A stretch of 64,000 nt of DNA from Bacteroidota bacterium (GCA_018266835.1 JAFDZP010000002.1:324419-388418); one strand, 5' to 3'; positions 38,335 through 64,000 are shown, counted from the stretch's first letter. Notes: a model not told the origin generated them from the sequence alone. Numbers and translations are program-made.

Positions 38335-38432
38335 TATGTCCCAAACAGGGGTTTGGGACATAGAAATTTAAATAATATAATATTTGATTTTATTTCAGAT
38401 TCGTCTCCGTCCCAAACCCCTGTTTGGGACGG
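38335..38432. repeat. Pair of inverted REP-like hairpins (BIME-like)
   Basis: Hairpin 1 is TATGTCCCAAAC, loop AGGG, GTTTGGGACATA (38335-38362, 12 bp). Hairpin 2 is CCGTCCCAAAC, loop CCCT, GTTTGGGACGG (38407-38432, 11 bp). The two cores are exact reverse complements of each other, including the loops. Two inverted palindromes separated by about 45 bases match the architecture of bacterial interspersed mosaic elements. Confidence 0.8.
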
Positions 38433-51508: not shown

Positions 51509-52768
51509 TTAATGGTCGTGCTCTCCTAACTCGCCTTTTTTCATTTCCGAACGCAGATAAAATGCTCCGGTTGTAACGACTTCATTGTCTTCCTCCATTT
51601 TATCAATCGGAAATATCTCAATGTACTTATCATCTTCAACTCCCGTTCTTACATTTATTTTCTTGAAAACAATTTTGTCACCACTCTTATGCTCTTCACT
51701 TTTATGTATATCGTTCTTATGCCCATCCTCTTCATGTTCATGCTCAGCTTTTTCATTAGTTCTTACAAAAATATATTTTGACTCTCCTTCTTCTATTAAA
51801 GAAGATTTGGAAACTGCTTTTACGTTATTTTCCTCTATCAATATTTTAGCTGTTACAAACATATTGGGCAGTAGTTTATTATCCTTATTTTTTATCAGAA
51901 CTCTGACTTTTACCGTGCGGCTTGCATCATCAAAAATTGAATTGATGTTCGCTATATTGCCTTCAAATACTTCATCTCCATAGGTAGATGTTTCAATTTT
52001 TACTTTTTGACCTTTCGATATTTTAGATAAATCTTTTTCAAAAATATTTAAATCAACATATACAGTTGAAGTATTCACAATATGAAACATCTCCGTTGAC
52101 GGTTCAACAAACTGCCCTATCGTGATCATCTTTGAAACAACATTTCCTGAGATAGGTGAAACTATAGAATAAAACCTCTGAACATTAACAGTTGTATCTT
52201 CATCAAGATTATCGAAACGGTTTTTATTAATCTTATAACTTGATAATCTTTGCTCAAGCGACCTCATATTGGTAACTGCTCTTTTATAATTTGCCTCTAA
52301 CTCTGCTATAGTTTTCCTGGAAGTGATATCACTAATTCTTTTTTGCCTGTCTAATTCCTGCTTTGCATATTCAACATCATTTTTTGCTGATATGTAGTCT
52401 GTCTGAATGCTAACAAGGTCAATATTTTCAACTGTTGCAAGAACCTGACCTGCTCTTACATTAGCCCCCTCTTTAACATTAACTGATTTTATTCTGCCGC
52501 TTATTATCCCGCCAACTTTAGATTCCTGTTCCTGATTTATCTTCACTTCCCCTGTAACTTTTATATATCCTGAAATATTCATATCTGTTATCGGTGAAAC
52601 CTCTATTCCCATTAATTTAATCTGCTCTTTTGAAAGTGAAACCTCTGTTTTATTTTCTTCTTCATGATGATGCTCTTCTTTTTTTTCCTCTGAAGCTTCC
52701 TGTTTTTTCCCGCAGGATATAAATACTCCTAATGTTAGAAATATTATTACGATTTTTATATGTCTCAT
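51509..52768 (-). CDS. Heavy-metal efflux RND adaptor lipoprotein (CzcB/CusB-like)
   Basis: A 419-residue periplasmic adaptor with a lipoprotein signal (lipobox VFISC, Cys at 19). A His/Glu-rich metal-binding stretch follows (EEHHHEEENKTE, about 33-44). The lipoyl half GIISGRIKSVNVKEGANVRA, an alpha-hairpin (about 125-195) and the second half IVSPISGNVVSKMITIG are in order. A second His-rich loop sits near residues 340-362 (HEHEEDGHKNDIHKSEEHK) and the end is GEHDH. It links pump and channel and may hand metal to the pump. Its start overlaps the end of the pump gene by 4 bases. Confidence 0.9.
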   Translation of the reverse strand: MRHIKIVIIFLTLGVFISCGKKQEASEEKKEEHHHEEENKTEVSLSKEQIKLMGIEVSPITDMNISGYIKVTGEVKINQEQESKVGGIISGRIKSVNVKEGANVRAGQVLATVENIDLVSIQTDYISAKNDVEYAKQELDRQKRISDITSRKTIAELEANYKRAVTNMRSLEQRLSSYKINKNRFDNLDEDTTVNVQRFYSIVSPISGNVVSKMITIGQFVEPSTEMFHIVNTSTVYVDLNIFEKDLSKISKGQKVKIETSTYGDEVFEGNIANINSIFDDASRTVKVRVLIKNKDNKLLPNMFVTAKILIEENNVKAVSKSSLIEEGESKYIFVRTNEKAEHEHEEDGHKNDIHKSEEHKSGDKIVFKKINVRTGVEDDKYIEIFPIDKMEEDNEVVTTGAFYLRSEMKKGELGEHDH

Positions 52769-55700
52769 TTTAAAACTCTCCCTGTAATCTTTTCTAAATT
52801 AATTATTGAAATTTTTAAATTATACCGGTTACCGGCATACGCTGCTTGTACATCCATATAAGTTCTTAAAGCTTGTAAGAAATCATTATAAGATGCAGTG
52901 CCTTCATCATAACTCCTTTTTGTAGCATCCATAATCTGTCGTGCTTCATCCAGTACACCATTATTTATAAAGTCAGCTTGTCGTTTGCTGTTTGAAAAAT
53001 CATCAAACGCATTTTTTACATCTGATTTCAATCTTCTTAATGTGAAGTCTTCTTCCGATTGCATTATTTTTTTTTCAACCTTAGCCTCGCTTATCTCTCC
53101 TGAATTCTCCAGCCAGAACCAAACGGGAATGCCAAGCCCGACTTCAAATCCATAGTAACCGCTCTCACTTCCTAATTTCAGATTGTAATATTTCAGTGAA
53201 ATATTCGGCAGCAATAAAGACTTTGCGAGAGAAATTTTATTTTCCGCTCTCTCCTTTTTCAATCTGCTTAAAATCAGCTCCGGATTATTTTGCAAAGCAC
53301 TTCTTAACATTTCATCAAGCCGAACATCATATAAACGAGCAGCTGTATCCATTTCAATTTTTATTTCAGAAACATCAGCATTCAATAATAACTGCAGCTC
53401 TGAAAAAGATTTTTTCAAATCATTTTCAATATTTTTCAGTTCGTTTTCCGTTTTTGACTTATTAACTTTTGCATTCAAAACATCAAGCGAAGTTGTAAAC
53501 CCTGCATCAAGTTTTCGTTCTGCTGTTTTTAAAAATTCATCGCTGATTTTTACATTTTCCTTAGCTATCTGTATCAATGAACTATGCAGCATTGCTGTGT
53601 AATAAGCTATTTTTATCTCCGCCGTAACTGAATTTATTTTATTCTGAAGTTCTGCTTTTGCAATTTCTATCTGAACTGACTGAACATCCGAACGCATGAA
53701 GTAAACAGACGGAAACTCAAGTTCCTGCGTTATTCCAATCTTTCTGCTTTCAAAATTTTCAATACCTCCTTTAACTCCTTCGTATTCTAAAAATAATTGC
53801 GGTTTTGGGATATTAACAGATTTTTTAAGCCCCGCTTCTTCTTTCTCAATATTCAGACGGAGTGCTTCAATTTCGCTATTTCTCTTTATACCCATTTCAA
53901 TATATTTATCTATATCATTTATCTGTGCAAACGAAATTGACGGTAATAAAATAAACAAAAGGAAAATAGTCGCTTTTATGTGTGAGCTCATTTTAAAATT
54001 ACTTTTCTTATTAAAGATTGAGTAAAGCAACGGAAGAACAATCAAAGTAAGGAGAGTGGAAGAAATCAATCCCCCAATAACCACCGTTGCAAGCGGCTTC
54101 TGCACTTCAGCCCCTGCCCCTGTAGAAATTGCCATAGGAATAAATCCAAGTGATGCGACAAGAGCTGTCATTAAAATTGGCCGCAGTCTCGCAGAAGTCC
54201 CTAATATTATTCTCTCGTGAACATCTTTCACACCTTCTTTTTCAAGTTTATTAAAGTGCGCTATCATTACTATTCCATTTAATACTGCTACACCGAAGAG
54301 AGCGATGAATCCTACTCCTGCGGAAATGCTGAACGGAATATCTCTTATAACCAAAGCAAAAATACCTCCGACAATTGCGAACGGAATTCCGCTGAAAACA
54401 AGCAGCCCCTGCTTAACCGAATTAAAAGTTACGAAGAGTAAAGCAAAAATAAAAAACAATGAAACCGGAACAGCTACATACAATCTTTGCTTTGCACTTT
54501 CCAAATTCTTAAATTGACCGCCGTACTCTAATGAATATCCGGGAGGCATTTTTAAATTATCTTTTATTTTAACCTGAAGTTCATTCACAAAGCTTTCAAT
54601 ATCTCTGCCCCTTACATTACACTGAGCAACGATTCTTCTTTTTCCGTTATCTCTTGTAATCTCCGCAGGTCCCTCATCAATGTTTATATCCGCTAATTCA
54701 TTCAAAGGAATCTTTGCTCCATTGGAAGAATTGACAAGAATATTTTTTATCTGCTCCATATCTTTCCTGTAATCCTGTTGATACTTAATTACCAGATCGA
54801 ATTTTTTGTCACCTTCAAAGACAACTCCCGCAGTTTTTCCCGCCAAACCTGTTTCTATTATTTCATTTACCTCGCTTATGTTAATTCCATATCTGGCAAT
54901 CTTATCTCTTTTAATTTTTATTTGAAGCTGAGGTAAACCTTCTAACTGCTGAACCGAGACATCTTCTGCTCCTACTATTCCTGAGATAATTTTAGCAGCA
55001 TCACTTCCTGCTTTTGATAACTCAGACAAATCTTCTCCGAATATTTTCACAGCAATATCTCCTTTTGCCCCGGAAATCAGCTCGTTAAATCTTAGCTCGA
55101 TTGGTTGAGTAAATGATAACCCGATTCCCGGAACAACTGACAACTCCTTATGCATCATTTCAACAAGTTCTTCTTTATTTATATTTTTTCTCCACTCCTC
55201 TTTTGGTTTTAACATTACCAATACATCACTAAATTCTACTCCCATCGGGTCAGTTGCAATTTCAGCAGCGCCTGTTTTAGTTACAACTGTTTTAACTTCA
55301 GGGAATTTTGATACTAATATCTGTTCACAGATTGTACCTATCCTTTTTGATTCTTTCAAAGATACTCCGGGTAATCTTGCAATCTGATATGCTACATCCC
55401 CTTCATCAAGTTTCGGAATAAACTCCCCTCCCAACCTAAAAAAAAGTACAATACTGAATGCCAAAGCTATCACAGCAGAAATAATAACCAATGTTTTTCT
55501 TTTTAAAGCAAATTTTAAAGAAGGGAGATATAATCCTTTAATAAAGTTTATTATTTTGTCGGCAATAGTTTCTTTCTCCTTCTGATCCCTTTTTAGAATT
55601 AAATCACTCATCATAGGAACATATGTAAGCGATAACAGCAAAGCCCCTATTAATGCAAACCCAACTGTAAACGCCATTGGCTTGAACATTTTCCCTTCGA

Positions 55701-57108
55701 TGCCTCCTAATGCAAATATAGGCAGGTAAACAACGATGATAATTAATATTCCGAAAATCGCAGATTTTATTATTCCGGTGGTAGATTTGAATATCGTGTC
55801 CTGCATTTCATCTTTATGCAGAGGTCTTTGGTGCTTATGAATTGAATGTGATATTGCCACGATAATACTCTCTACAATGATAACAGCGCCATCAACGATT
55901 AATCCGAAATCAATCGCTCCCAACGACATTAAATTTCCTGAAACCCCGAACAAGTTCATCATTATAAGCGCAAAGAGCATTGAAAGCGGAATTACGGAAG
56001 CGACTATAAATCCGGCTCGTAGATTTCCAAGCAAAAGCACTAAAACAAATATTACTATAATTGCGCCTTCAGCTAAATTTTTTTCTACCGTTACAATTGC
56101 TCTATCAACCAAATCCTCTCTATTGTAGAATTCGTCAACAGTAACACCTTCAGGCAGTGTAGTTTTTATCTCTTCAATTTTTTTATGAACAGTATTTGCA
56201 ACTTCTCGTGAGTTTGCGCCCTTGAGCATCATAACAATTCCTGCTACAACTTCACCTTTTCCATCCTGTGTGACAGCTCCGTATCTTATCCCTCCGGCTT
56301 CTTCAACCTCTGCTATTTGATTTAAATATACAGGAATTCCATGTTCGCTTTTTATTACTATATTATTAATATCATCTTTATTTTCTATAATCCCAATTCC
56401 TCTAATAGAATATTGTTCTGAGTTGTGTTCAATAAATGAACCGCCGACATTGGAATTATTTTTATTTACAGCATCAAAAACTTCGTGCATTGAAATATTA
56501 TAAGAGCGCAAAGCATCAGCATTCACCAATATCTGATATTGCTTTTCATATCCTCCAAAACTATTTACCTCTGCAACGCCTGCTGTTCCGAGTAACTGTC
56601 TTTTGACTATCCAATCCTGAATAGTCCGAAGTTCCATATCAGAAAATGTTGTATCACCTTTTCTTTCCGGTCTCACTACATACTGATAGACTTCTCCAAG
56701 ACCTGTGCTTATCGGCGCCATCTCAGGTGTTCCTAGTCCCTGCGGGATATTCTCTTCTGCCTCTTTTAATTTCTGAAAAATTAAATTTCTCGCAAAATAT
56801 ATATCGACATTATCATCAAACACAGCCGTAACAACTGAAACACCTAATTTTGAAATTGAACGCAGCTCAACCAATTTTGGAGTATTAGAAAGCGATATTT
56901 CTATAGGGTAAGTAATGAAGCGCTCTATTTCAGTTGCAGAAAGAGTTGGGCTTGCAGTGATAATTTGAATTTGATTATTTGTAATATCGGGGACTGCATC
57001 AATCGGTAAATTGATGGCAGAACTTACTCCGAATATTATTAAGAGCAGGACTAAAAATCCTACAACTATTTTTTGCTTTATAGAAAAAGCTATTAGTTTA
57101 TCAATCAT
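52765..57108 (-). CDS. Heavy-metal RND pump fused to TolC-like outer-membrane channel (CzcA-CzcC fusion)
   Basis: A 1447-residue protein made of two normally separate subunits. Residues 1-1035 are an HME-RND pump with 12 helices; the fourth helix carries DFGLIVDGAVIIVE (about 401-414), the proton-relay set of divalent-cation exporters (Zn, Co, Cd, Ni) rather than the Cu/Ag type. From Met1040 (DNA 53991) a new signal peptide (IKATIFLLFILLPSISFAQ) leads into a complete TolC/CzcC-like channel subunit of about 385 residues, with two coiled-coil repeats and LLLNADVSEI and GTASYNDFLQALRTY motifs. The frame is open through the join with no stop. The same fusion is known in Bacteroidetes. The inner-to-outer membrane split presumably needs cleavage at the second signal peptide. 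Confidence 0.92.
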   Translation of the reverse strand: MIDKLIAFSIKQKIVVGFLVLLLIIFGVSSAINLPIDAVPDITNNQIQIITASPTLSATEIERFITYPIEISLSNTPKLVELRSISKLGVSVVTAVFDDNVDIYFARNLIFQKLKEAEENIPQGLGTPEMAPISTGLGEVYQYVVRPERKGDTTFSDMELRTIQDWIVKRQLLGTAGVAEVNSFGGYEKQYQILVNADALRSYNISMHEVFDAVNKNNSNVGGSFIEHNSEQYSIRGIGIIENKDDINNIVIKSEHGIPVYLNQIAEVEEAGGIRYGAVTQDGKGEVVAGIVMMLKGANSREVANTVHKKIEEIKTTLPEGVTVDEFYNREDLVDRAIVTVEKNLAEGAIIVIFVLVLLLGNLRAGFIVASVIPLSMLFALIMMNLFGVSGNLMSLGAIDFGLIVDGAVIIVESIIVAISHSIHKHQRPLHKDEMQDTIFKSTTGIIKSAIFGILIIIVVYLPIFALGGIEGKMFKPMAFTVGFALIGALLLSLTYVPMMSDLILKRDQKEKETIADKIINFIKGLYLPSLKFALKRKTLVIISAVIALAFSIVLFFRLGGEFIPKLDEGDVAYQIARLPGVSLKESKRIGTICEQILVSKFPEVKTVVTKTGAAEIATDPMGVEFSDVLVMLKPKEEWRKNINKEELVEMMHKELSVVPGIGLSFTQPIELRFNELISGAKGDIAVKIFGEDLSELSKAGSDAAKIISGIVGAEDVSVQQLEGLPQLQIKIKRDKIARYGINISEVNEIIETGLAGKTAGVVFEGDKKFDLVIKYQQDYRKDMEQIKNILVNSSNGAKIPLNELADINIDEGPAEITRDNGKRRIVAQCNVRGRDIESFVNELQVKIKDNLKMPPGYSLEYGGQFKNLESAKQRLYVAVPVSLFFIFALLFVTFNSVKQGLLVFSGIPFAIVGGIFALVIRDIPFSISAGVGFIALFGVAVLNGIVMIAHFNKLEKEGVKDVHERIILGTSARLRPILMTALVASLGFIPMAISTGAGAEVQKPLATVVIGGLISSTLLTLIVLPLLYSIFNKKSNFKMSSHIKATIFLLFILLPSISFAQINDIDKYIEMGIKRNSEIEALRLNIEKEEAGLKKSVNIPKPQLFLEYEGVKGGIENFESRKIGITQELEFPSVYFMRSDVQSVQIEIAKAELQNKINSVTAEIKIAYYTAMLHSSLIQIAKENVKISDEFLKTAERKLDAGFTTSLDVLNAKVNKSKTENELKNIENDLKKSFSELQLLLNADVSEIKIEMDTAARLYDVRLDEMLRSALQNNPELILSRLKKERAENKISLAKSLLLPNISLKYYNLKLGSESGYYGFEVGLGIPVWFWLENSGEISEAKVEKKIMQSEEDFTLRRLKSDVKNAFDDFSNSKRQADFINNGVLDEARQIMDATKRSYDEGTASYNDFLQALRTYMDVQAAYAGNRYNLKISIINLEKITGRVLK

Positions 57109-57484: not shown

Positions 57485-57571
57485 TGAATGAAATAAACAT
57501 ATAAATTCCCGGGTCTGATTGCAAGGGAAATTTCATTTTCTTAATTTAATGAAATTAAGAAAGATTTCTTG

Positions 57572-57643
57572 TACCCCCAAGAGGATTCGAACCTCTAATA
57601 TCTGATCCGTAGTCAGAAGGTTTATCCATTAGCCTATGGGGGC
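57572..57643 (-). tRNA. tRNA-Arg (anticodon ACG)
   Basis: On the minus strand the 5' end GCCCCCA pairs with TGGGGGT. The anticodon arm TCTGA-CTACGGA-TCAGA gives anticodon ACG, and the T-arm is AGAGG-TTCGAAT-CCTCT. The discriminator is A and no CCA is encoded. The gene stands alone between the efflux operon and the LRR modules. Confidence 0.93.
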
Positions 57644-58020
57644 AATTGGAAAAGTAGTAAAATAGCTTAATTTACCGAGCTTTTAAAGTCAAATTTTCAA
57701 TTTTTAAACAACTGAAAAATTAAAATATACATAACCATCCATACTATTTTCAAATAAATCTTATTACAATTTTTTGCTATTATATTGCGAATACATGCAT
57801 ATTTTAAAATAATTTTGTTCTTTTTTAAATTTTTAGCTCTAACAAATTGCTTATTTTTTGCAACAATCATTTTTATAACAATTTTCTGCAATTTCGGACA
57901 AATATTATACGTTTTTATAATTTAAAATAGTTTTGTCTCTAACAATTTTTCTATGTTTTGTTTGTTAAGATAAAATTCAACAGCTAATTTTGAATAACTC
58001 AATAATCAATCCCCCAGATT
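57644..58020. other. A+T-rich spacer without a gene
   Basis: The 377 bases between tRNA-Arg and the first LRR gene hold no convincing coding frame. A 64-residue minus-strand frame (57697-57891) is low-complexity Lys/Ile/Asn and has no usable ribosome-binding site. The only feature recognised is the promoter at 57961-57992. Confidence 0.6.
57961..57992 (+). promoter_or_regulatory. Promoter of LRR gene 1
   Basis: TTTG at 57961-57964, 20 bases, then TAATTTTG at 57985-57992. Transcription should begin close to 57999, about 22 bases before the ATG. Confidence 0.75.
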
Positions 58021-58446
58021 ATGAATAAAAATATTTTAACAGCTTTTTCAGTGATTAGTTTACTAATATATTCAAATGCTTTTACACAGGAAAACCCTTC
58101 AGCAAAGAGTTCCGGATTTTATTTTGATGTCCAAAATCCTGAATCAGTTTCTGAACTGGATTTAAGCTCTAAAGATATTTATATGTTGCCGCAGGAAATT
58201 TTTGAAATGAAAAATATTGAATGTTTAGACCTGAGTAATAATAATTTGTCTGAACTGCCTGATGAAATTATGCAACTACAAAATTTAAAAATACTTAAGC
58301 TCAACGGAAATAAAATCTATTGGATGCCTGATGCAATTTCACGCTTAAAATTTTTGAAGGAAATTTATCTTGATTACTTTATATGGGGATACAGACTTGC
58401 TGAATTGAAGTCACTTACAAATGCAAAAATAATTTTAACAGATTAA
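58021..58446 (+). CDS. Small secreted leucine-rich-repeat protein, copy 1
   Basis: A 141-residue protein with a signal peptide (1-22, SNAFTQ). About four leucine-rich repeats follow: VSELDLSSKDIYMLPQEIF, IECLDLSNNNLSELPDEIM, LKILKLNGNKIYWMPDAIS and LKEIYLDYFIWGYRLAEL. The repeats have the Lxx(L)xLSxNxLxxLPxEI form of the bacterial-type LRR, which gives a binding surface. The C-terminal cap (IYLDxxIWxYRL ... AKIIL) is shared with copy 2. No membrane anchor or sorting domain is present, so the protein is probably periplasmic or secreted. Confidence 0.85.
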   Translation: MNKNILTAFSVISLLIYSNAFTQENPSAKSSGFYFDVQNPESVSELDLSSKDIYMLPQEIFEMKNIECLDLSNNNLSELPDEIMQLQNLKILKLNGNKIYWMPDAISRLKFLKEIYLDYFIWGYRLAELKSLTNAKIILTD

Positions 58447-58478
58447 TTCTATACAATTTTGGGAGAACGCTTTTAAAA

Positions 58479-58535
58479 CCTTTCCGGGCTGTGAATTTGT
58501 ACATCAATCGCCAGAGTTAAAAAGGTCCGGAAAGG
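58479..58535. repeat. Short inverted repeat after LRR gene 1
   Basis: CCTTTCCGG (58479-58487) and CCGGAAAGG (58527-58535), 39 bases apart. A perfect 9-bp stem with a long loop, of unknown role. Confidence 0.5.
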
Positions 58536-58631
58536 CCAGAAAGCTTATCAAAAAATTTAAAAAAGTTTACCTCAAATTTTTCTCATAACTGCAAAAAATT
58601 TATTAACAATCACACTTCTTTTCTCCTTCAA

Positions 58632-58670
58632 ATTCCGGTGTTTCATTGCCAATTTTAGAAACGCCGGAAT
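58632..58670. terminator. Bidirectional hairpin between LRR 1 and solenoid protein 1
   Basis: ATTCCGGTGTTTC (58632-58644) pairs over 13 positions (one G:U) with GAAACGCCGGAAT (58658-58670), placed between convergent genes. Confidence 0.7.
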
Positions 58671-58706
58671 ACCTTTCCCTGAATTAAAAATCAGTTCTTA
58701 TTAATT

Positions 58707-60164
58707 TCAACATTTCATTAGTTCATCGGCTTTGCTTTCAAGCCACAATTTATTTCTTATTGCTTTGCAATCGGTTATTCCTTTTTTACATTCTTCAATA
58801 TCTATGTTCTTTCCTGATTTTTTATTTAATAAGATTCTGTAAAATTTTAAAAAATTTGAATTTAGCTCAAGGCGGTTATCCGAAATTATATCTGTTCGAA
58901 GCAGATACTGCCTGAATGCCTCAGACTGTGAAAATGCAGATTCAATATAATTCAGCTCATAATAATTCATAAGCTTTAGCAGCTTTATATCTGTTTTAAA
59001 AAGTAGATTATCTTTTTTAACTCTTGAAAGAATTTCAAGCGATTCGATGAATTGCCCCAGTTCAAACAAAATGCGGGCATTGTAGAAATTATAAAAATCT
59101 TCTTTTATTGCTTCCGACAGTTTATTCTTATTTTCCTCCAGAAAATTAAAAGCCCACTGAGATTCCTGTACGTTTAAAGCCGTCAGAATATAATTACTGA
59201 ATTCAACAGGGTGTATAATTCCATTTGTTTCCGTATACCATTTTTTACTTACTCCTTCTTTTACAAGTTCAAATAATCGTCTGTGCATATTTATATCATC
59301 GGGCTTTAGATTCAATTTAATAATATTCTGAAGCCAGATAAAAAAGTACTTCTGCATTTTAGGGGGAATATCATTTTTAACTGCACAGAATAAATTATAA
59401 GCTCTTTCAAAATTACCAGAAATATCATCATCTGCATTTTCTTCTGCAAGGAAAAGATAATAATATAATTCTATTTCACCGAAATAAGGATTATTATTTT
59501 CTTTAAAAGCTTCAATCAGTTTTTTAACATCGGAACTCCTGAAAAAAGTAAAAACTATATTATTTTCCATTAAAAGATTGTAAGACCTTTCCAGACTGCG
59601 AAAACTTGTCTGCTTCAGGAAAAACTCCTTAAGCAAAAATATCATTAATGCTTCTGAGCTTGAGTTCATTAACTTAAGCATTTCTTCGGTGCCTGAAATA
59701 GAAGTGTCATTTAATTTTTCGCTTTCCAGCAAAAAGCTATTCAGACACTTTTTATAGAGAGTGTGCTCTTTTAAATCGTTTGCCTTATAAACTTTTTCGT
59801 AATGTTTATTATATAGCTTTTCAATTCCCCTGTTTTGTAATTCAGTTAAAAGCGCAAAGTCATATTCAAAAGAATTTTCATAACTGATATATCTTAGAAA
59901 TTTTTCTGCCAGGCTCCCTAAATCAGACAATAAATTTCTGACAGTTCCGTCATTAAATTTTTTTCCGGGATACAGTTTTTTATAAATTTTTTCTGAAGTT
60001 AATTTCAGATTATTAAACTCCGGATAGTAAGGTTTTAACACATTAAAAACCTGCAGTAAGTCTTTTGATCTGTTGAAATAAGGAGAAGCTATGAACGTGG
60101 AAAATTTTTCCAATTCCGGTACAGTCAATGAAGAAAGAATTTGAATAGCTTTTAAATGTTTCAT
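58707..60164 (-). CDS. Cytoplasmic alpha-helical protein of unknown function, copy 1
   Basis: A 485-residue protein without signal peptide or membrane helix. The N-terminal 90 residues are the family hallmark: ILSSLTVPELEKFSTFIASP, then YFNRSKDLLQVF, YPEF, EKIYKKLYPGKKFNDGTVRN and LLSDLGSLAEKFLRYISYE. The rest is a chain of helices in the style of an alpha-solenoid, ending in KKSGKNIDIEECKKGITDCKAIRNKLW. It is the most diverged of the three copies in its middle part. It overlaps copy 2 by 4 bases (start within stop of copy 2), so both come from one transcript. The function is unknown. Confidence 0.8.
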   Translation of the reverse strand: MKHLKAIQILSSLTVPELEKFSTFIASPYFNRSKDLLQVFNVLKPYYPEFNNLKLTSEKIYKKLYPGKKFNDGTVRNLLSDLGSLAEKFLRYISYENSFEYDFALLTELQNRGIEKLYNKHYEKVYKANDLKEHTLYKKCLNSFLLESEKLNDTSISGTEEMLKLMNSSSEALMIFLLKEFFLKQTSFRSLERSYNLLMENNIVFTFFRSSDVKKLIEAFKENNNPYFGEIELYYYLFLAEENADDDISGNFERAYNLFCAVKNDIPPKMQKYFFIWLQNIIKLNLKPDDINMHRRLFELVKEGVSKKWYTETNGIIHPVEFSNYILTALNVQESQWAFNFLEENKNKLSEAIKEDFYNFYNARILFELGQFIESLEILSRVKKDNLLFKTDIKLLKLMNYYELNYIESAFSQSEAFRQYLLRTDIISDNRLELNSNFLKFYRILLNKKSGKNIDIEECKKGITDCKAIRNKLWLESKADELMKC

Positions 60165-61633
60165 GACGGTAAAATATTACTTATTTCCTCAAATTTTTCA
60201 AGCAGCCATACTTTATTTCTTATAACATCGCATTCTTTAAGTTCCTTTTTGACGAATGAAATATCCGTTTCTTTCCCGGATTTATTCTTTAGAAGTACTA
60301 AATAGTATTTTAAAAAATTAGAGCTTAATTCTTTTCTTCCTGTATAAGCTTCATCATTTCTGATTATCATTTGCTTAAAAGCTTCGGCATGGGCAAAAGC
60401 TGATTCTAATTCTCCAAGCTCGTAAAAATTAATCAGCTTCAAAATTTTAGAAGCCGCTTTGAATGTATCGTCATCTTTGCTGACTTTCAAAAGGATTTCG
60501 TTCGATTCTATATATTTTTTATCAAGAGAAAGAAATTTAGCCTTATAGTATGTATAAATGTCATTTTTAGCAATAGCATCATCATCAACTGCATCAATTT
60601 GATTTTCCCAAAAGTCTTTTGCCCATTCAATTTCATTGGCAGCTATGGCATCATGAATAATCTGAGAGTACATAAAGCCCGGCATTTTTCCTTTAGAGTC
60701 AAGCGCTAATCCTTTTTCAATCATTTCCTTTTCCACCTGAAATTTTATTGTACTTAAGTGTTTATCATCTGCCTTTATATACATATTAATAATATTAATA
60801 ACCCATACATATATCCTTATCTGTGACTGTTTACCCATACTGTTTATTTGCTCATTAAATATCTTGTAAGCCTCCTCAAAATTATTATAAAAGTTGCCGT
60901 CTTTATTCTGGGCAACCTTAGCAAGATAGTATGGAAGTTTTATATCATCGTAATAAGCGCTTTTACTGTCTTTCATTCTGTTAACAATTGATTCGATATC
61001 TGAAAATTCAAAAAACGTTTCGACAATATCAAACTCTTTCTGCCCCTTATACCAATCTGCAACCTTTACGTGGCATGACTGCGCCAGCAAAAACTCATTG
61101 AGAAAAAAAGAAAATAATGCTTCAGACACTGATTTTCGCAGACTCTCGTTTAAATTAATATTTATTCTCTGTTCGTAGAGCAACATTTCCGACTCAATAA
61201 AACATTTATTCAAATTTTTTCTGTATAATGCATCTTCTTTTATTTCATTTCTTTCATAATACTTATTATAATTTTTTAAAAATTCTTTTTCCAGATATCT
61301 GGCATTCGTTTCTTCTAAAATTTTATGTCCGAACTCAAAAGTATTCTCATAATTCACATATCCTAAAAATTTTTCTGCAAGACTGCCTAAATCCGAGAAC
61401 AAGTTTCTTATAGTGCCTTCTGCATATAATTTTCCGGGATATAACTTTTTATAGATTTTTTCATAATCAAGTTTAGGATGGCTGAATTCAGGATAGTATT
61501 TCTTTATTTCAAAAAAAAGATTTAAGACATCTTTTGAACGGTTGAAGTACGGCGATTGAACAAATTTATCAAATTCGGCAAATTCTTCTTTTGTCAAAGA
61601 TGATAAAATACGAATAGCTTTTACTTGTATCAT
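60161..61633 (-). CDS. Cytoplasmic alpha-helical protein of unknown function, copy 2
   Basis: A 490-residue paralogue of copy 1 and closer still to copy 3. The hallmark reads RILSSLTKEEFAEFDKFVQS, PYFNRSKDVLNLF, EKIYKKLYPGKLYAEGTIRN, LFSDLGSLAEKFLGYVNYE. Shared with copy 3 are NARYLEKEFLKNYNKYYE and QNKDGNFYNNFEEAYKIF, and the end (IRNKVWLLEKFEEIS) is nearly the same. No catalytic motif could be recognised; protein binding through the helical repeats is the likely activity. It is divergent from LRR gene 2 across 184 bases. Confidence 0.8.
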   Translation of the reverse strand: MIQVKAIRILSSLTKEEFAEFDKFVQSPYFNRSKDVLNLFFEIKKYYPEFSHPKLDYEKIYKKLYPGKLYAEGTIRNLFSDLGSLAEKFLGYVNYENTFEFGHKILEETNARYLEKEFLKNYNKYYERNEIKEDALYRKNLNKCFIESEMLLYEQRININLNESLRKSVSEALFSFFLNEFLLAQSCHVKVADWYKGQKEFDIVETFFEFSDIESIVNRMKDSKSAYYDDIKLPYYLAKVAQNKDGNFYNNFEEAYKIFNEQINSMGKQSQIRIYVWVINIINMYIKADDKHLSTIKFQVEKEMIEKGLALDSKGKMPGFMYSQIIHDAIAANEIEWAKDFWENQIDAVDDDAIAKNDIYTYYKAKFLSLDKKYIESNEILLKVSKDDDTFKAASKILKLINFYELGELESAFAHAEAFKQMIIRNDEAYTGRKELSSNFLKYYLVLLKNKSGKETDISFVKKELKECDVIRNKVWLLEKFEEISNILPS

Positions 61634-61749
61634 TTTTTGGGGGATTTTTGCTACAATTTAGCTAATATAATTAACTGTTATTTATTAATTTACGTCACAT
61701 TATGGGATAATTTTATTCCATTTTTTAATGAAAAACTGTAAAAAATGTT

Positions 61750-61781
61750 TTTGCTTTGAGTGTCTATCAATCGTAATTTTA
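61750..61781 (+). promoter_or_regulatory. Promoter of LRR gene 2
   Basis: TTTG at 61750-61753, 20 bases, then TAATTTTA at 61774-61781 (one mismatch to TAnnTTTG), 36 bases before the ATG. The words TGTTTTTGC around the -33 element recur in front of LRR gene 3. Confidence 0.65.
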
Positions 61782-61817
61782 TGCAAAAATTATTTATAAT
61801 AAAATCTAATTAAGAAT

Positions 61818-62228
61818 ATGAAAAAAATTATTATACCAATCTTTATTTTAATCTCCCTGATCATAATGAACTCTACAGCTGCATCCGGTGCCTGTTTATC
61901 TGAGTTAAAATTTTCACGAAGCTTTAGTTCACAGGATCTTGATTTCAGCGGTAAAGGAATGAAAGAGTTTCCTAAAGAAGTGCTTGGCATGACAGATGTG
62001 AAAACATTAGACTTAAGTGATAATAAACTGACAAATATCCCTTCCGAAATTCAGAATCTGAAATACCTTACTGTATTAAAACTGAACGGAAATAAAATCT
62101 ATGAACTGCCTTCTGTTGTTTCAAAATTAAAATTCCTTAAAGAAATTTATCTTGATAGAGAAATCTGGCAATACAGATTGAATGAAGTGAAAAAAATTAC
62201 TGCAGCTAGAATTATTTTAGTAGGGTAA
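61818..62228 (+). CDS. Small secreted leucine-rich-repeat protein, copy 2
   Basis: A 136-residue paralogue of the gene at 58021. A signal peptide (about 1-24, NSTAASG) precedes a short linker (ACLSELKFSRSFSSQDLDFS) and leucine-rich repeats: MKEFPKEVLGMTDVKTLDLS, NKLTNIPSEIQNLKYL, TVLKLNGNKIYELPSVVSK. The C-terminal cap LKFLKEIYLDREIWQYRLNE is almost the same as in copy 1. It is divergent from solenoid protein 2 and convergent with solenoid protein 3, from which it is separated by a hairpin. Confidence 0.85.
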   Translation: MKKIIIPIFILISLIIMNSTAASGACLSELKFSRSFSSQDLDFSGKGMKEFPKEVLGMTDVKTLDLSDNKLTNIPSEIQNLKYLTVLKLNGNKIYELPSVVSKLKFLKEIYLDREIWQYRLNEVKKITAARIILVG

Positions 62229-62245
62229 GAAATTATTTAGAACTA

Positions 62246-62302
62246 CACAATTCGTTCCGGAGCCGTTTGTTCCCGCTTTCGGTCTTCGGAACAAGAATTG
62301 TG
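62246..62302. terminator. Bidirectional hairpin between LRR 2 and solenoid protein 3
   Basis: CACAATTCGTTCCG (62246-62259) pairs with CGGAAC...GAATTGTG (62287-62302), with a 2-base bulge. An inner CCG/CGG closes part of the loop. It lies between convergent genes and its sequence is unrelated to the hairpin after LRR 1. Confidence 0.7.
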
Positions 62303-62305
62303 CTT

Positions 62306-63757
62306 TTAACTCAACTCTTCAAATTTTTCTAACAGCCAGTCTTTATTCCTTATTATCGCACAATCCAATAACTCTTTTTTGAAATGAGAAATATCATCTT
62401 CTGCTCCCGATTTTTTCTTTAACAAAATTAAATAGTACTTTAGAAAATTTGTACATTTTTCTCTATAAATACCATTAGCGGTCTCATTTCTTATATTATA
62501 CTGTTTTAAAGTCTCAGCCTGAGAGAAACCTGCCTCTGTAAAGCCAAGTTCAAAATAATTTATCATCCGTAGAACTTTAGAATCAATTTTAAATAAAATA
62601 TCTTCCTTATCTATTTTGAGCAGCGCCTCATTCGATTCTATATATTTTTTCTGTCTCGATAAAATTTTTGCTTTGTAGTAATTATAAAAATCACTTTTGG
62701 CATCTTCGGCAATCAGATTAATTTTGTTTTCAAGAAAGTCAGATGCCCAATCCAATTCCTTAACTAATATTGCCCCGTGAATAAGATTAACAAACACAAA
62801 TGCGCTCATTTTGCCCGTTTCATCTAATGCAATTTCTTTAGCAACCATTTCTTTCCCGGTTTGAAATAATACCTGTAATAATTCCTTATCATCAATTTTT
62901 GCGTGAGTATTTATAAGATTTCGTAACCAGATATACATTCTGTATTGGGCTTGTTTTGTCATTTTATCAATGCGTTCCTTGAATAACTTATACGATCTTT
63001 CAAAATTAAAAAAAAAATTCCCGTCTTTATTTTGCGTTGTAAGAAAAAATGAATAATATAATTCAATATCTTTATAATGAGGACTATTATTTTTCTTCAA
63101 ACCGCTTATTAACTTAGCAACATCCACGCAGTCAAAAAATAATTTTACAATATCATATTTCCCCGATTGCTCATTTGAGGAAACCCTGGCAATATAACTT
63201 GAGTGCTCGAATATAAACTCTGCAAAGAAAAAAGCAAATAATGGTTCATTGAGATTATTTCGCGAATAATTTTTTGGTTTAATTTTTCTTCTGTCATTAA
63301 ATAGATCTAACTCTGTAACTAGATGATACTTATTAAGATTTTTTTTGTAAAAACTGTCTTCTATTAACTCATTCTCATCATACAAATTATTGTAATTTTT
63401 ATTAAACTCTTTATCAAGATATCTTGCATTTGTTTCGCTTAGTAATTTCAATCCAAAGTCAAAAGAGCCTTCATGGTTTATAAATCCTAAAAATCTTTCT
63501 GCAAGATTACCTAAATCTGTAAAAAGATTTCTGATAGTTCCTTCGTTAAATGTTTTTCCGGGATAAAGTTTTTTATAAATATTTTCATTCGTAAGCTTAG
63601 GGCTTTCAAATATCGGATAGTATTTATTTACAGCGTAAAATAATTTTGTAAGGTCTTTTGAACGGTTAAAAAATGGAGAATTAATGAATCTATCAAACTC
63701 AGCAAACTCCTCTTTAGATAAAGTTGATAAAATACGGAAAGCCTTAATTTGATTCAT
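62306..63757 (-). CDS. Cytoplasmic alpha-helical protein of unknown function, copy 3
   Basis: A 483-residue member of the same family. Hallmark: RILSTLSKEEFAEFDRFINS, PFFNRSKDLTKLF, ENIYKKLYPGKTFNEGTIRN, LFTDLGNLAERFLGFINHE. It shares NARYLDKEFNKNYNN and QNKDGNFFFNFERSYKLF with copy 2 and ends IRNKDWLLEKFEELS. It has no secretion signal. It is divergent from LRR gene 3 across 185 bases. Confidence 0.8.
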   Translation of the reverse strand: MNQIKAFRILSTLSKEEFAEFDRFINSPFFNRSKDLTKLFYAVNKYYPIFESPKLTNENIYKKLYPGKTFNEGTIRNLFTDLGNLAERFLGFINHEGSFDFGLKLLSETNARYLDKEFNKNYNNLYDENELIEDSFYKKNLNKYHLVTELDLFNDRRKIKPKNYSRNNLNEPLFAFFFAEFIFEHSSYIARVSSNEQSGKYDIVKLFFDCVDVAKLISGLKKNNSPHYKDIELYYSFFLTTQNKDGNFFFNFERSYKLFKERIDKMTKQAQYRMYIWLRNLINTHAKIDDKELLQVLFQTGKEMVAKEIALDETGKMSAFVFVNLIHGAILVKELDWASDFLENKINLIAEDAKSDFYNYYKAKILSRQKKYIESNEALLKIDKEDILFKIDSKVLRMINYFELGFTEAGFSQAETLKQYNIRNETANGIYREKCTNFLKYYLILLKKKSGAEDDISHFKKELLDCAIIRNKDWLLEKFEELS

Positions 63758-63876
63758 TCTTTTGTGTGGTTTAGGGGTTAAACTGCAAGACTTCTAATAT
63801 TATAATTAACAATATTTTATACGAAAAACTCCTAAATATATTGTACTTTATTTGGTTAAAAGTTAAAAAAATTGTT

Positions 63877-63908
63877 TTTGCAGATTAGCACTGTTCCCCG
63901 TATTTTAA
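63877..63908 (+). promoter_or_regulatory. Promoter of LRR gene 3
   Basis: TTTG at 63877-63880, 20 bases, then TATTTTAA at 63901-63908, two bases off TAnnTTTG. Its layout and 34-base leader match LRR gene 2, including AGAAT directly before the ATG. Confidence 0.55.
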
Positions 63909-63942
63909 TCAAAATTTTTGATTAAAAAAATCTTAAAAGAAT

Positions 63943-64000
63943 ATGAAAATTTTTTTAATATTTGCCGCAACCATGTTTGTAATACTAAATTCCTCTGCTC
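63943..64000 (+). CDS. Start of a third small secreted LRR-module protein (cut by window end)
   Basis: An ATG at 63943 opens a frame to the window edge, giving the first 19 residues MKIFLIFAATMFVILNSSA, a typical signal peptide that resembles copy 2 (MKKIIIPIFILISLIIMNST). Position, promoter and the AGAAT-ATG context match copy 2, so this is probably LRR copy 3, although the repeats themselves are outside the window. Confidence 0.6.
   Translation, partial: MKIFLIFAATMFVILNSSA

Follow-up and report, generated by a model that had tools for sequence, protein, structure and literature searches.

The 64,000-nucleotide stretch of DNA analysed here (hereafter the window; G000:C2:324419-388418, within a genome of 4.0 Mb) carries near its 3' end three minus-strand genes coding for alpha-helical proteins of one family, which we call HEL. 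An earlier note on this DNA had described a repeated two-gene module with diverging pairs. Such a unit is confirmed, in numerous versions that have diverged, at about 38 sites of the source genome and also in other genomes, as a HEL gene and a divergent partner gene whose product is usually exported. We favour, with moderate confidence, the reading that HEL is a lineage-expanded family of cytoplasmic proteins that act as local regulators of the divergent gene; DNA binding, the direction of control and the existence of a ligand are the parts of this reading that we infer.

The layout was quantified on HEL units, in which tandem copies were merged. The genes of the source genome were called by a codon model, and gene calls and signal-peptide calls were made with simple in-house methods. 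A divergent 5' neighbour was found for 32 of the 38 HEL units, or for 33 when the gene of a secreted peptide of 70 aa that escaped the caller (C2:1681855) is included, against 120 of 545 background genes taken from 40 sampled stretches of 20 kb (0.8 Mb; 33/38 versus 120/545, p=6e-16). For the genome G001, from the same genus, and the complete genome G025, from another family, the background consisted of the non-HEL genes of the HEL neighbourhoods. The divergent arrangement concerns 24 of 31 HEL units in G001 (background 30/142) and 44 of 45 in G025 (background 50/254, p=4e-25). Among Saprospiraceae and other metagenome-assembled genomes (MAGs) from outside the Ignavibacteria, where the loci are mostly single-copy and tandem copies were excluded, 27 of 28 HEL genes are divergent (background 32/108, p=4e-11). 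Ordinary genes of the four data sets have a divergent 5' neighbour in 20-30% of cases. Local regulators, such as those of the LysR type, are usually encoded head-to-head with their targets. HEL units share with these and similar divergent regulators this orientation and a short spacer, but HEL has no LysR, TetR or AraC domain, its putative sensor is all-helical and of the tetratricopeptide repeat (TPR) type, and one promoter box is found for dozens of targets.

Cargo of the type IX secretion system (T9SS) with the sorting domain Por_Secre_tail (PF18962) represents the commonest class of partners. The source genome has 16 T9SS cargo partners and 9-10 others with a signal peptide, and the 44 partners of G025 comprise 19 T9SS proteins, 13 other secreted proteins and 12 others. 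T9SS cargo is more frequent in HEL pairs than in background divergent pairs, both in the source genome (16/33 versus 19/120, p=2e-4) and in G025 (19/44 versus 3/50, p=2e-5); the association is therefore more than one of orientation alone. The partners range over beta-propellers, proteins of the glycoside hydrolase family 18 type (GH18, chitinase-like), leucine-rich repeat (LRR) proteins, lipoproteins, secreted peptides of 70-80 aa and some cytoplasmic proteins. The genome contains 150 or more genes with a T9SS C-terminal domain (CTD) and, unlike the HEL partners, the majority of these cargo genes lack both a HEL neighbour and the promoter box described below. The presence or absence of the T9SS is uninformative with regard to HEL, since SprA was found in 40 of the 40 relatives searched. 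Within the genus, orthologous HEL genes usually keep orthologous partners, and their 3' neighbours are conserved too. On the deeper HEL tree, obtained with FastTree and poorly resolved in its deep branches, the class of the partner changes as it does with shuffled labels (p 0.26-0.75).

Two kinds of small partners recur. A family of secreted peptides of 70-81 aa, with the motif DGv.w.fvYd.dG.l..YpE and no Pfam match, lies beside HEL genes, mostly divergently (L042:8856-9065, L049:9531-9767 and L049:8810-9022, with kin in G001 C33 and in G025). Homologous peptides are divergent from HEL in three genomes of two families, and they represent a candidate family of pro-peptides. In G025 (C1:496965, 726063 and 842031; L158-L160), the divergent partner is repeatedly a small, single fibronectin-III-like protein that lacks a signal peptide.

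The partner promoters of Ignavibacteria share an extended -33 box, ACAA-N6-AAAWNTNTCTTTG-N19/20-TAnnTTTG, on the strand of the partner. De novo motif searches in the HEL spacers of three genomes recovered the same (A/C)AA-N6-AAAWNTNTCTTTG element each time. A TAnnTT box, which was not part of the training, is present 19 or 20 nt downstream of the -33 box in 37 of 48 sites. Promoters of Bacteroides are of a -33/-7 spacing type with the -7 consensus TAnnTTTG; the HEL partner box has the same spacing and differs by its extended upstream half. A matrix built from the source genome and G001 only was applied to the held-out G025. Mean scores were 8.3-9.3 for HEL partners, 3.9 for T9SS genes that are not partners and 3.6-3.8 for other genes (Mann-Whitney U test, p=1e-11 against other genes and p=9e-6 against T9SS non-partners), and the box together with the -7 element occurs in 16 of 44 partners, in none of 21 T9SS non-partners and in 2 of 100 other genes. 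The reverse test, in which the de novo motif of G025 was scored on the source genome, gave p=1.7e-5 and 4e-4 (same test). The box was also detected in other Ignavibacteria (p=1e-4), and its scores are alike for T9SS and non-T9SS partners. A strict pattern derived from these same data matches eight distinct sites in the 4.0-Mb genome, four of them in HEL spacers. The partner promoters of Saprospiraceae display a conserved stretch of their own, TTTTGtATcATCAAA, which may reflect only orthology.

The structure of HEL2, the middle one of the three HEL proteins of the window, was predicted as a single chain with AlphaFold2 (AF2) from an alignment of 75 HEL sequences. The model is all-helical, with a mean predicted local distance difference test (pLDDT) value of 92.7, and comprises a five-helix N-terminal domain (residues 1-95) followed by an array of the TPR type. 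When residues ~120-489 were aligned with VIA-align on the Foldseek candidates, the first twelve rows were all Rap or NprR receptors, led by RapI (Z 15.6, 310 residues, root mean square deviation, rmsd, of 5.5). An unrelated TPR protein follows at rank 13 with Z 12.7, helical repeats often reach Z 13-14, and Foldseek's own ranking places generic TPR proteins first; in this model the likeness to Rap and NprR is no more than suggestive. A structural search of BFVD with HEL returned generic TPR-like rows only, and AimR was not among them. For the N-terminal domain modelled alone, the best three VIA-align rows are all DNA-binding proteins (sigma-H, Z 7.4; the DNA-binding domain (DBD) of CadC, Z 5.2; PerR, Z 4.5). 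This domain is the most conserved part of HEL (2.13 bits per column versus 1.22 and 1.66 for other parts) and is net-positive (K+R 17.4 versus D+E 13.4), whereas the C-terminal TPR-type domain is the variable part. The alignment with the CadC DBD (72 residues, rmsd 3.1) and the TPR-like domain that comes next recall the SARP/BTAD and CadC-like OmpR-type regulators; unlike these, the HEL model has no beta wing, and no Trans_reg_C or BTAD domain was matched in Pfam among the 75 HEL members.

A protein search detected 44 HEL copies in the source genome, 43 full-length and one remnant of 80 aa. A profile search found 49 full-length copies in G025, and a search with a single protein found 3 to 41 or more per relative. 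Outside the order HEL is rare and low-copy, the counts being lower bounds, and the named relatives are all MAGs of Ignavibacteria, Saprospiraceae or other Bacteroidota. The 73 named loci come from a profile search of genome contigs with a subfamily alignment; the same contigs gave no match when searched with the window HEL protein or with the full family alignment. The paralogues are 20-30% identical, yet full-length and open. Some members have weak Pfam matches to TPRs, and a profile search of the PDB recovered designed TPRs only. As to the identity of HEL, no usable match was found in Pfam, NCBIfam, PHROGs or PADLOC, the last two covering known phage and anti-phage defence families, and no paper describing the family was found in the literature searched. 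HEL is best read as a new lineage-expanded family of regulators without a name in these four databases. Within G000:C2:1199109-1200833, the remnant (C2:1200591-1200833) precedes the HEL gene of which it is a truncated copy; the HEL found there is 91% identical to that of a sister species, and the arrangement is a recent partial tandem duplication.

In the reading that we favour, each HEL gene stands head-to-head with its target, most often a gene for T9SS cargo or for another exported protein or peptide, and the target promoters of Ignavibacteria carry the -33 box facing the target. The five-helix N-terminal domain would act at this promoter, either by binding DNA or through contact with RNA polymerase. 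A signal (a peptide, a protein or a small molecule) bound by the variable C-terminal domain would set the state of the switch. With 40-50 versions of HEL, the cell could pick the surface and secreted proteins that it displays. The box is independent of the product of the partner and partner type does not track HEL lineage; the common denominator is therefore the promoter and not the product. Similarly, the constant head-to-head position and the box of Ignavibacteria argue for an action at the promoter rather than for a protein-specific recognition. Of the features expected of a local divergent regulator, a consistent head-to-head orientation was observed in the four data sets, and a common cis-element was observed in the held-out G025 and not in Saprospiraceae; as to a DNA-binding domain, no match was obtained by sequence, and the structural rows were those of sigma-H, CadC and PerR given above.

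Several observations weigh against this regulatory reading. The likeness of the N-terminal domain to helix-turn-helix (HTH) proteins is weak (Foldseek E above 2, VIA-align Z below 8), and neither HEL nor this domain matched a DNA-binding family by sequence in the profile libraries. The box is not significant in Saprospiraceae (p=0.14) despite the same layout, and inverted repeats are not enriched in HEL spacers (12.5% versus 14% of other divergent spacers). A single box for more than 40 paralogues leaves unexplained the specificity of each HEL for its own neighbour, and the box could belong to a common sigma factor or to a global regulator. Finally, T9SS genes also show a smaller, non-significant excess on the 3' side of HEL (6/18 versus 23/134, p=0.10), so that the link with the T9SS may be in part regional.

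Peptide quorum sensing of the RRNPP (or RRNPPA) type, where the TPR domain would bind a short peptide, cleaved from the secreted pro-peptide or exported protein of the neighbouring gene and then re-imported, and the N-terminal domain would act on transcription, is unlikely, although several features speak for it. The receptors Rap, NprR, PlcR, Rgg, PrgX and AimR are, like HEL, cytoplasmic TPR-fold proteins (250-500 aa) encoded beside a secreted partner. They include the nearest solved folds for the TPR part of HEL, with the twelve best structural rows cited above, and the length of ~480 aa, the adjacency and the C-terminal TPRs fit the criteria for such systems (PMC10075063). The peptides of 70-81 aa found divergent from HEL in three genomes point in the same direction. 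On the other hand, the margin of RapI and the following rows over unrelated TPR proteins is small, Foldseek prefers generic TPRs, and HEL shows no sequence similarity to these receptors. Their N-terminus is an XRE-type HTH in the transcriptional members, or a three-helix bundle in Rap; the N-terminal domain of HEL has five helices and weak HTH-like structural rows, and no XRE-type HTH was recognised in it. Most partners are not pro-peptides but large T9SS proteins, small secreted peptides being adjacent in a minority of HEL units. RRNPP systems have been described in Firmicutes (PMC10075063, PMC9765709), whereas HEL occurs in Gram-negative Ignavibacteria and Bacteroidota with 40-50 paralogues per genome. 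A Gram-negative counterpart, with 40-50 TPR receptors each sensing a peptide derived from its neighbour and switching that neighbour through the shared -33 box, is likewise improbable; if it existed, the T9SS surface proteome would be chosen by the sensing of self or kin.

It is rather improbable that HEL copies are neutral or selfish and duplicate into strongly expressed promoters, with the box as a target-site preference and no regulation. The numerous copies, including a degraded one (the truncation of 80 aa), the 3-41 or more copies per relative and the shuffling of partner types would agree with it. However, the copies are ancient according to their identity of 20-30%, and they have nevertheless remained full-length and open and all point the same way with respect to the neighbour; neither mobile-element machinery nor terminal repeats were seen, and single-copy members in Saprospiraceae have the same layout.

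The earlier note had proposed matched recognition pairs, for example of effector and immunity proteins, in which HEL would neutralise or recognise the exported partner. The many diverged versions of the two-gene unit and the orthologous partners usually kept within the genus are compatible with this proposal, which is nonetheless very unlikely: beyond the genus the kind of partner does not follow the HEL tree, the 3' neighbours are also conserved at genus distance, the diverse partners listed above share no toxin domain, immunity genes normally lie in one transcription unit and not divergently, and no PADLOC match was found. We also regard as highly doubtful that HEL proteins are cytoplasmic chaperones or pilots delivering T9SS or Sec cargo for secretion, since the client binding common among cytoplasmic TPR proteins, the enrichment of T9SS cargo and the SprA found in all relatives searched stand against the majority of T9SS-CTD genes without HEL neighbour, the partners that are not exported, the shared promoter box left unexplained and the fact that chaperone genes are usually in an operon with their client.

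In the window, the three HEL proteins are paralogues, as the earlier note had stated, and are 43-53% identical to one another. Two divergent pairs of HEL and exported partner are present, and both spacers, of the lengths previously reported, contain the word GTTTTTGC followed by a -7-like box 19 nt further; these common promoter words are real and general in the partner promoters of Ignavibacteria. There is no third pair: LRR58021 and HEL58707 lie tail-to-tail, 260 bp apart, and LRR58021 is divergent from no HEL gene; its upstream region reaches a box score of 3.5 at best in a matrix scan. HEL1 and HEL2 form a tandem pair with an overlap of 4 bp. The small signal-peptide LRR proteins number two and not three (47% identical), since the gene at 63943, which continues outside the window to G000:C2:390208, ends with the Por_Secre_tail domain in Pfam. 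A protein search recovered only these two LRR genes of this kind in the whole genome, so that LRR proteins are at most 2 of ~33 partners and are ruled out as the rule. The earlier note had set beforehand that a helical family widespread and rarely beside an LRR gene would speak against the LRR pairing; this is what was found, and the LRR pairing falls. It is replaced by a stronger one, of HEL with genes for exported proteins. The earlier observation and its interpretation both hold in part, and the pattern extends further than the note had it. The coordinates are collected in Table 1.

Table 1. Features of the HEL region, in window coordinates
Feature	Position	Strand	Basis
LRR protein 1 (LRR58021), 141 aa, signal peptide	58021..58446	+	Open reading frame (ORF); Pfam LRR_8 E=1.7e-12
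HEL1 (HEL58707), 485 aa, downstream gene of the tandem HEL pair	58707..60164	-	ORF; family membership
HEL2 (HEL60161), 490 aa, first gene of the tandem pair and divergent from LRR2	60161..61633	-	ORF; AF2 pLDDT 92.7
HEL2 N-terminal five-helix domain (residues 1-99), predicted	61334..61630	-	AF2, VIA-align, conservation
HEL2 / LRR2 divergent spacer, 184 bp	61634..61817	.	Sequence
LRR2 promoter, extended -33 box TAAAAAATGTTTTTGC	61739..61754	+	Matrix score 12.0; in training set
LRR2 promoter, -7 element TAATTTTA, 19 nt past the box	61774..61781	+	Motif search
LRR protein 2 (LRR61818), 136 aa, signal peptide, divergent partner of HEL2	61818..62228	+	ORF; Pfam
HEL3 (HEL62306), 483 aa, divergent from the T9SS cargo gene	62306..63757	-	ORF
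HEL3 / T9SS cargo divergent spacer, 185 bp; inverted repeat TTTTAATCAAAAATTTTGATTAAAA with 12-bp arms	63758..63942	.	
T9SS cargo promoter, extended -33 box AAAAAATTGTTTTTGC	63866..63881	+	Matrix score 16.1; in training set
T9SS cargo promoter, -7 element TATTTTAA	63901..63908	+	Motif search
Exported T9SS cargo, 615 aa, not LRR; start only inside the window	63943..64000	+	Por_Secre_tail E=1.6e-10

A fourth HEL gene is located nearby (C2:394332-395780) and has no divergent partner; it is adjoined by three tandem genes for secreted, tail-collar-like proteins with a TAT-like signal (G000:C2:392525-394009, L032:5758-8009). Upstream of LRR58021 is a tRNA-Arg(acg) on the minus strand (57571-57643), and an ORF of 1447 codons (52765-57108) codes for what we take, judging the translation by eye, to be a CusA-type resistance-nodulation-division (RND) efflux pump fused to a TolC-like outer-membrane factor. 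With at most one mismatch, a REP-like palindrome, CCAAACCCCTGTTTGG, is found 38 times in the genome and not once in the reversed control. Its copies often form inverted pairs; sites include window positions 38341-38427 and G000:C2:1200874-1200921 and 1200622-1200637. One of the pairs is located in the spacer of a HEL gene, and the sister species has it unaltered in the orthologous spacer.

The layout together with the box provides a strong genomic handle by which dozens of hypothetical proteins in each genome of the order could be annotated. If the favoured reading is true, HEL proteins would be local switches for the cell-surface proteome, and they would supply the missing local control for a subset of the cargo in T9SS genomes of Bacteroidota and Ignavibacteria, which have at least 150 cargo genes. 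The link of HEL to this subset, through gene order and a predictive box, would make such local control testable.

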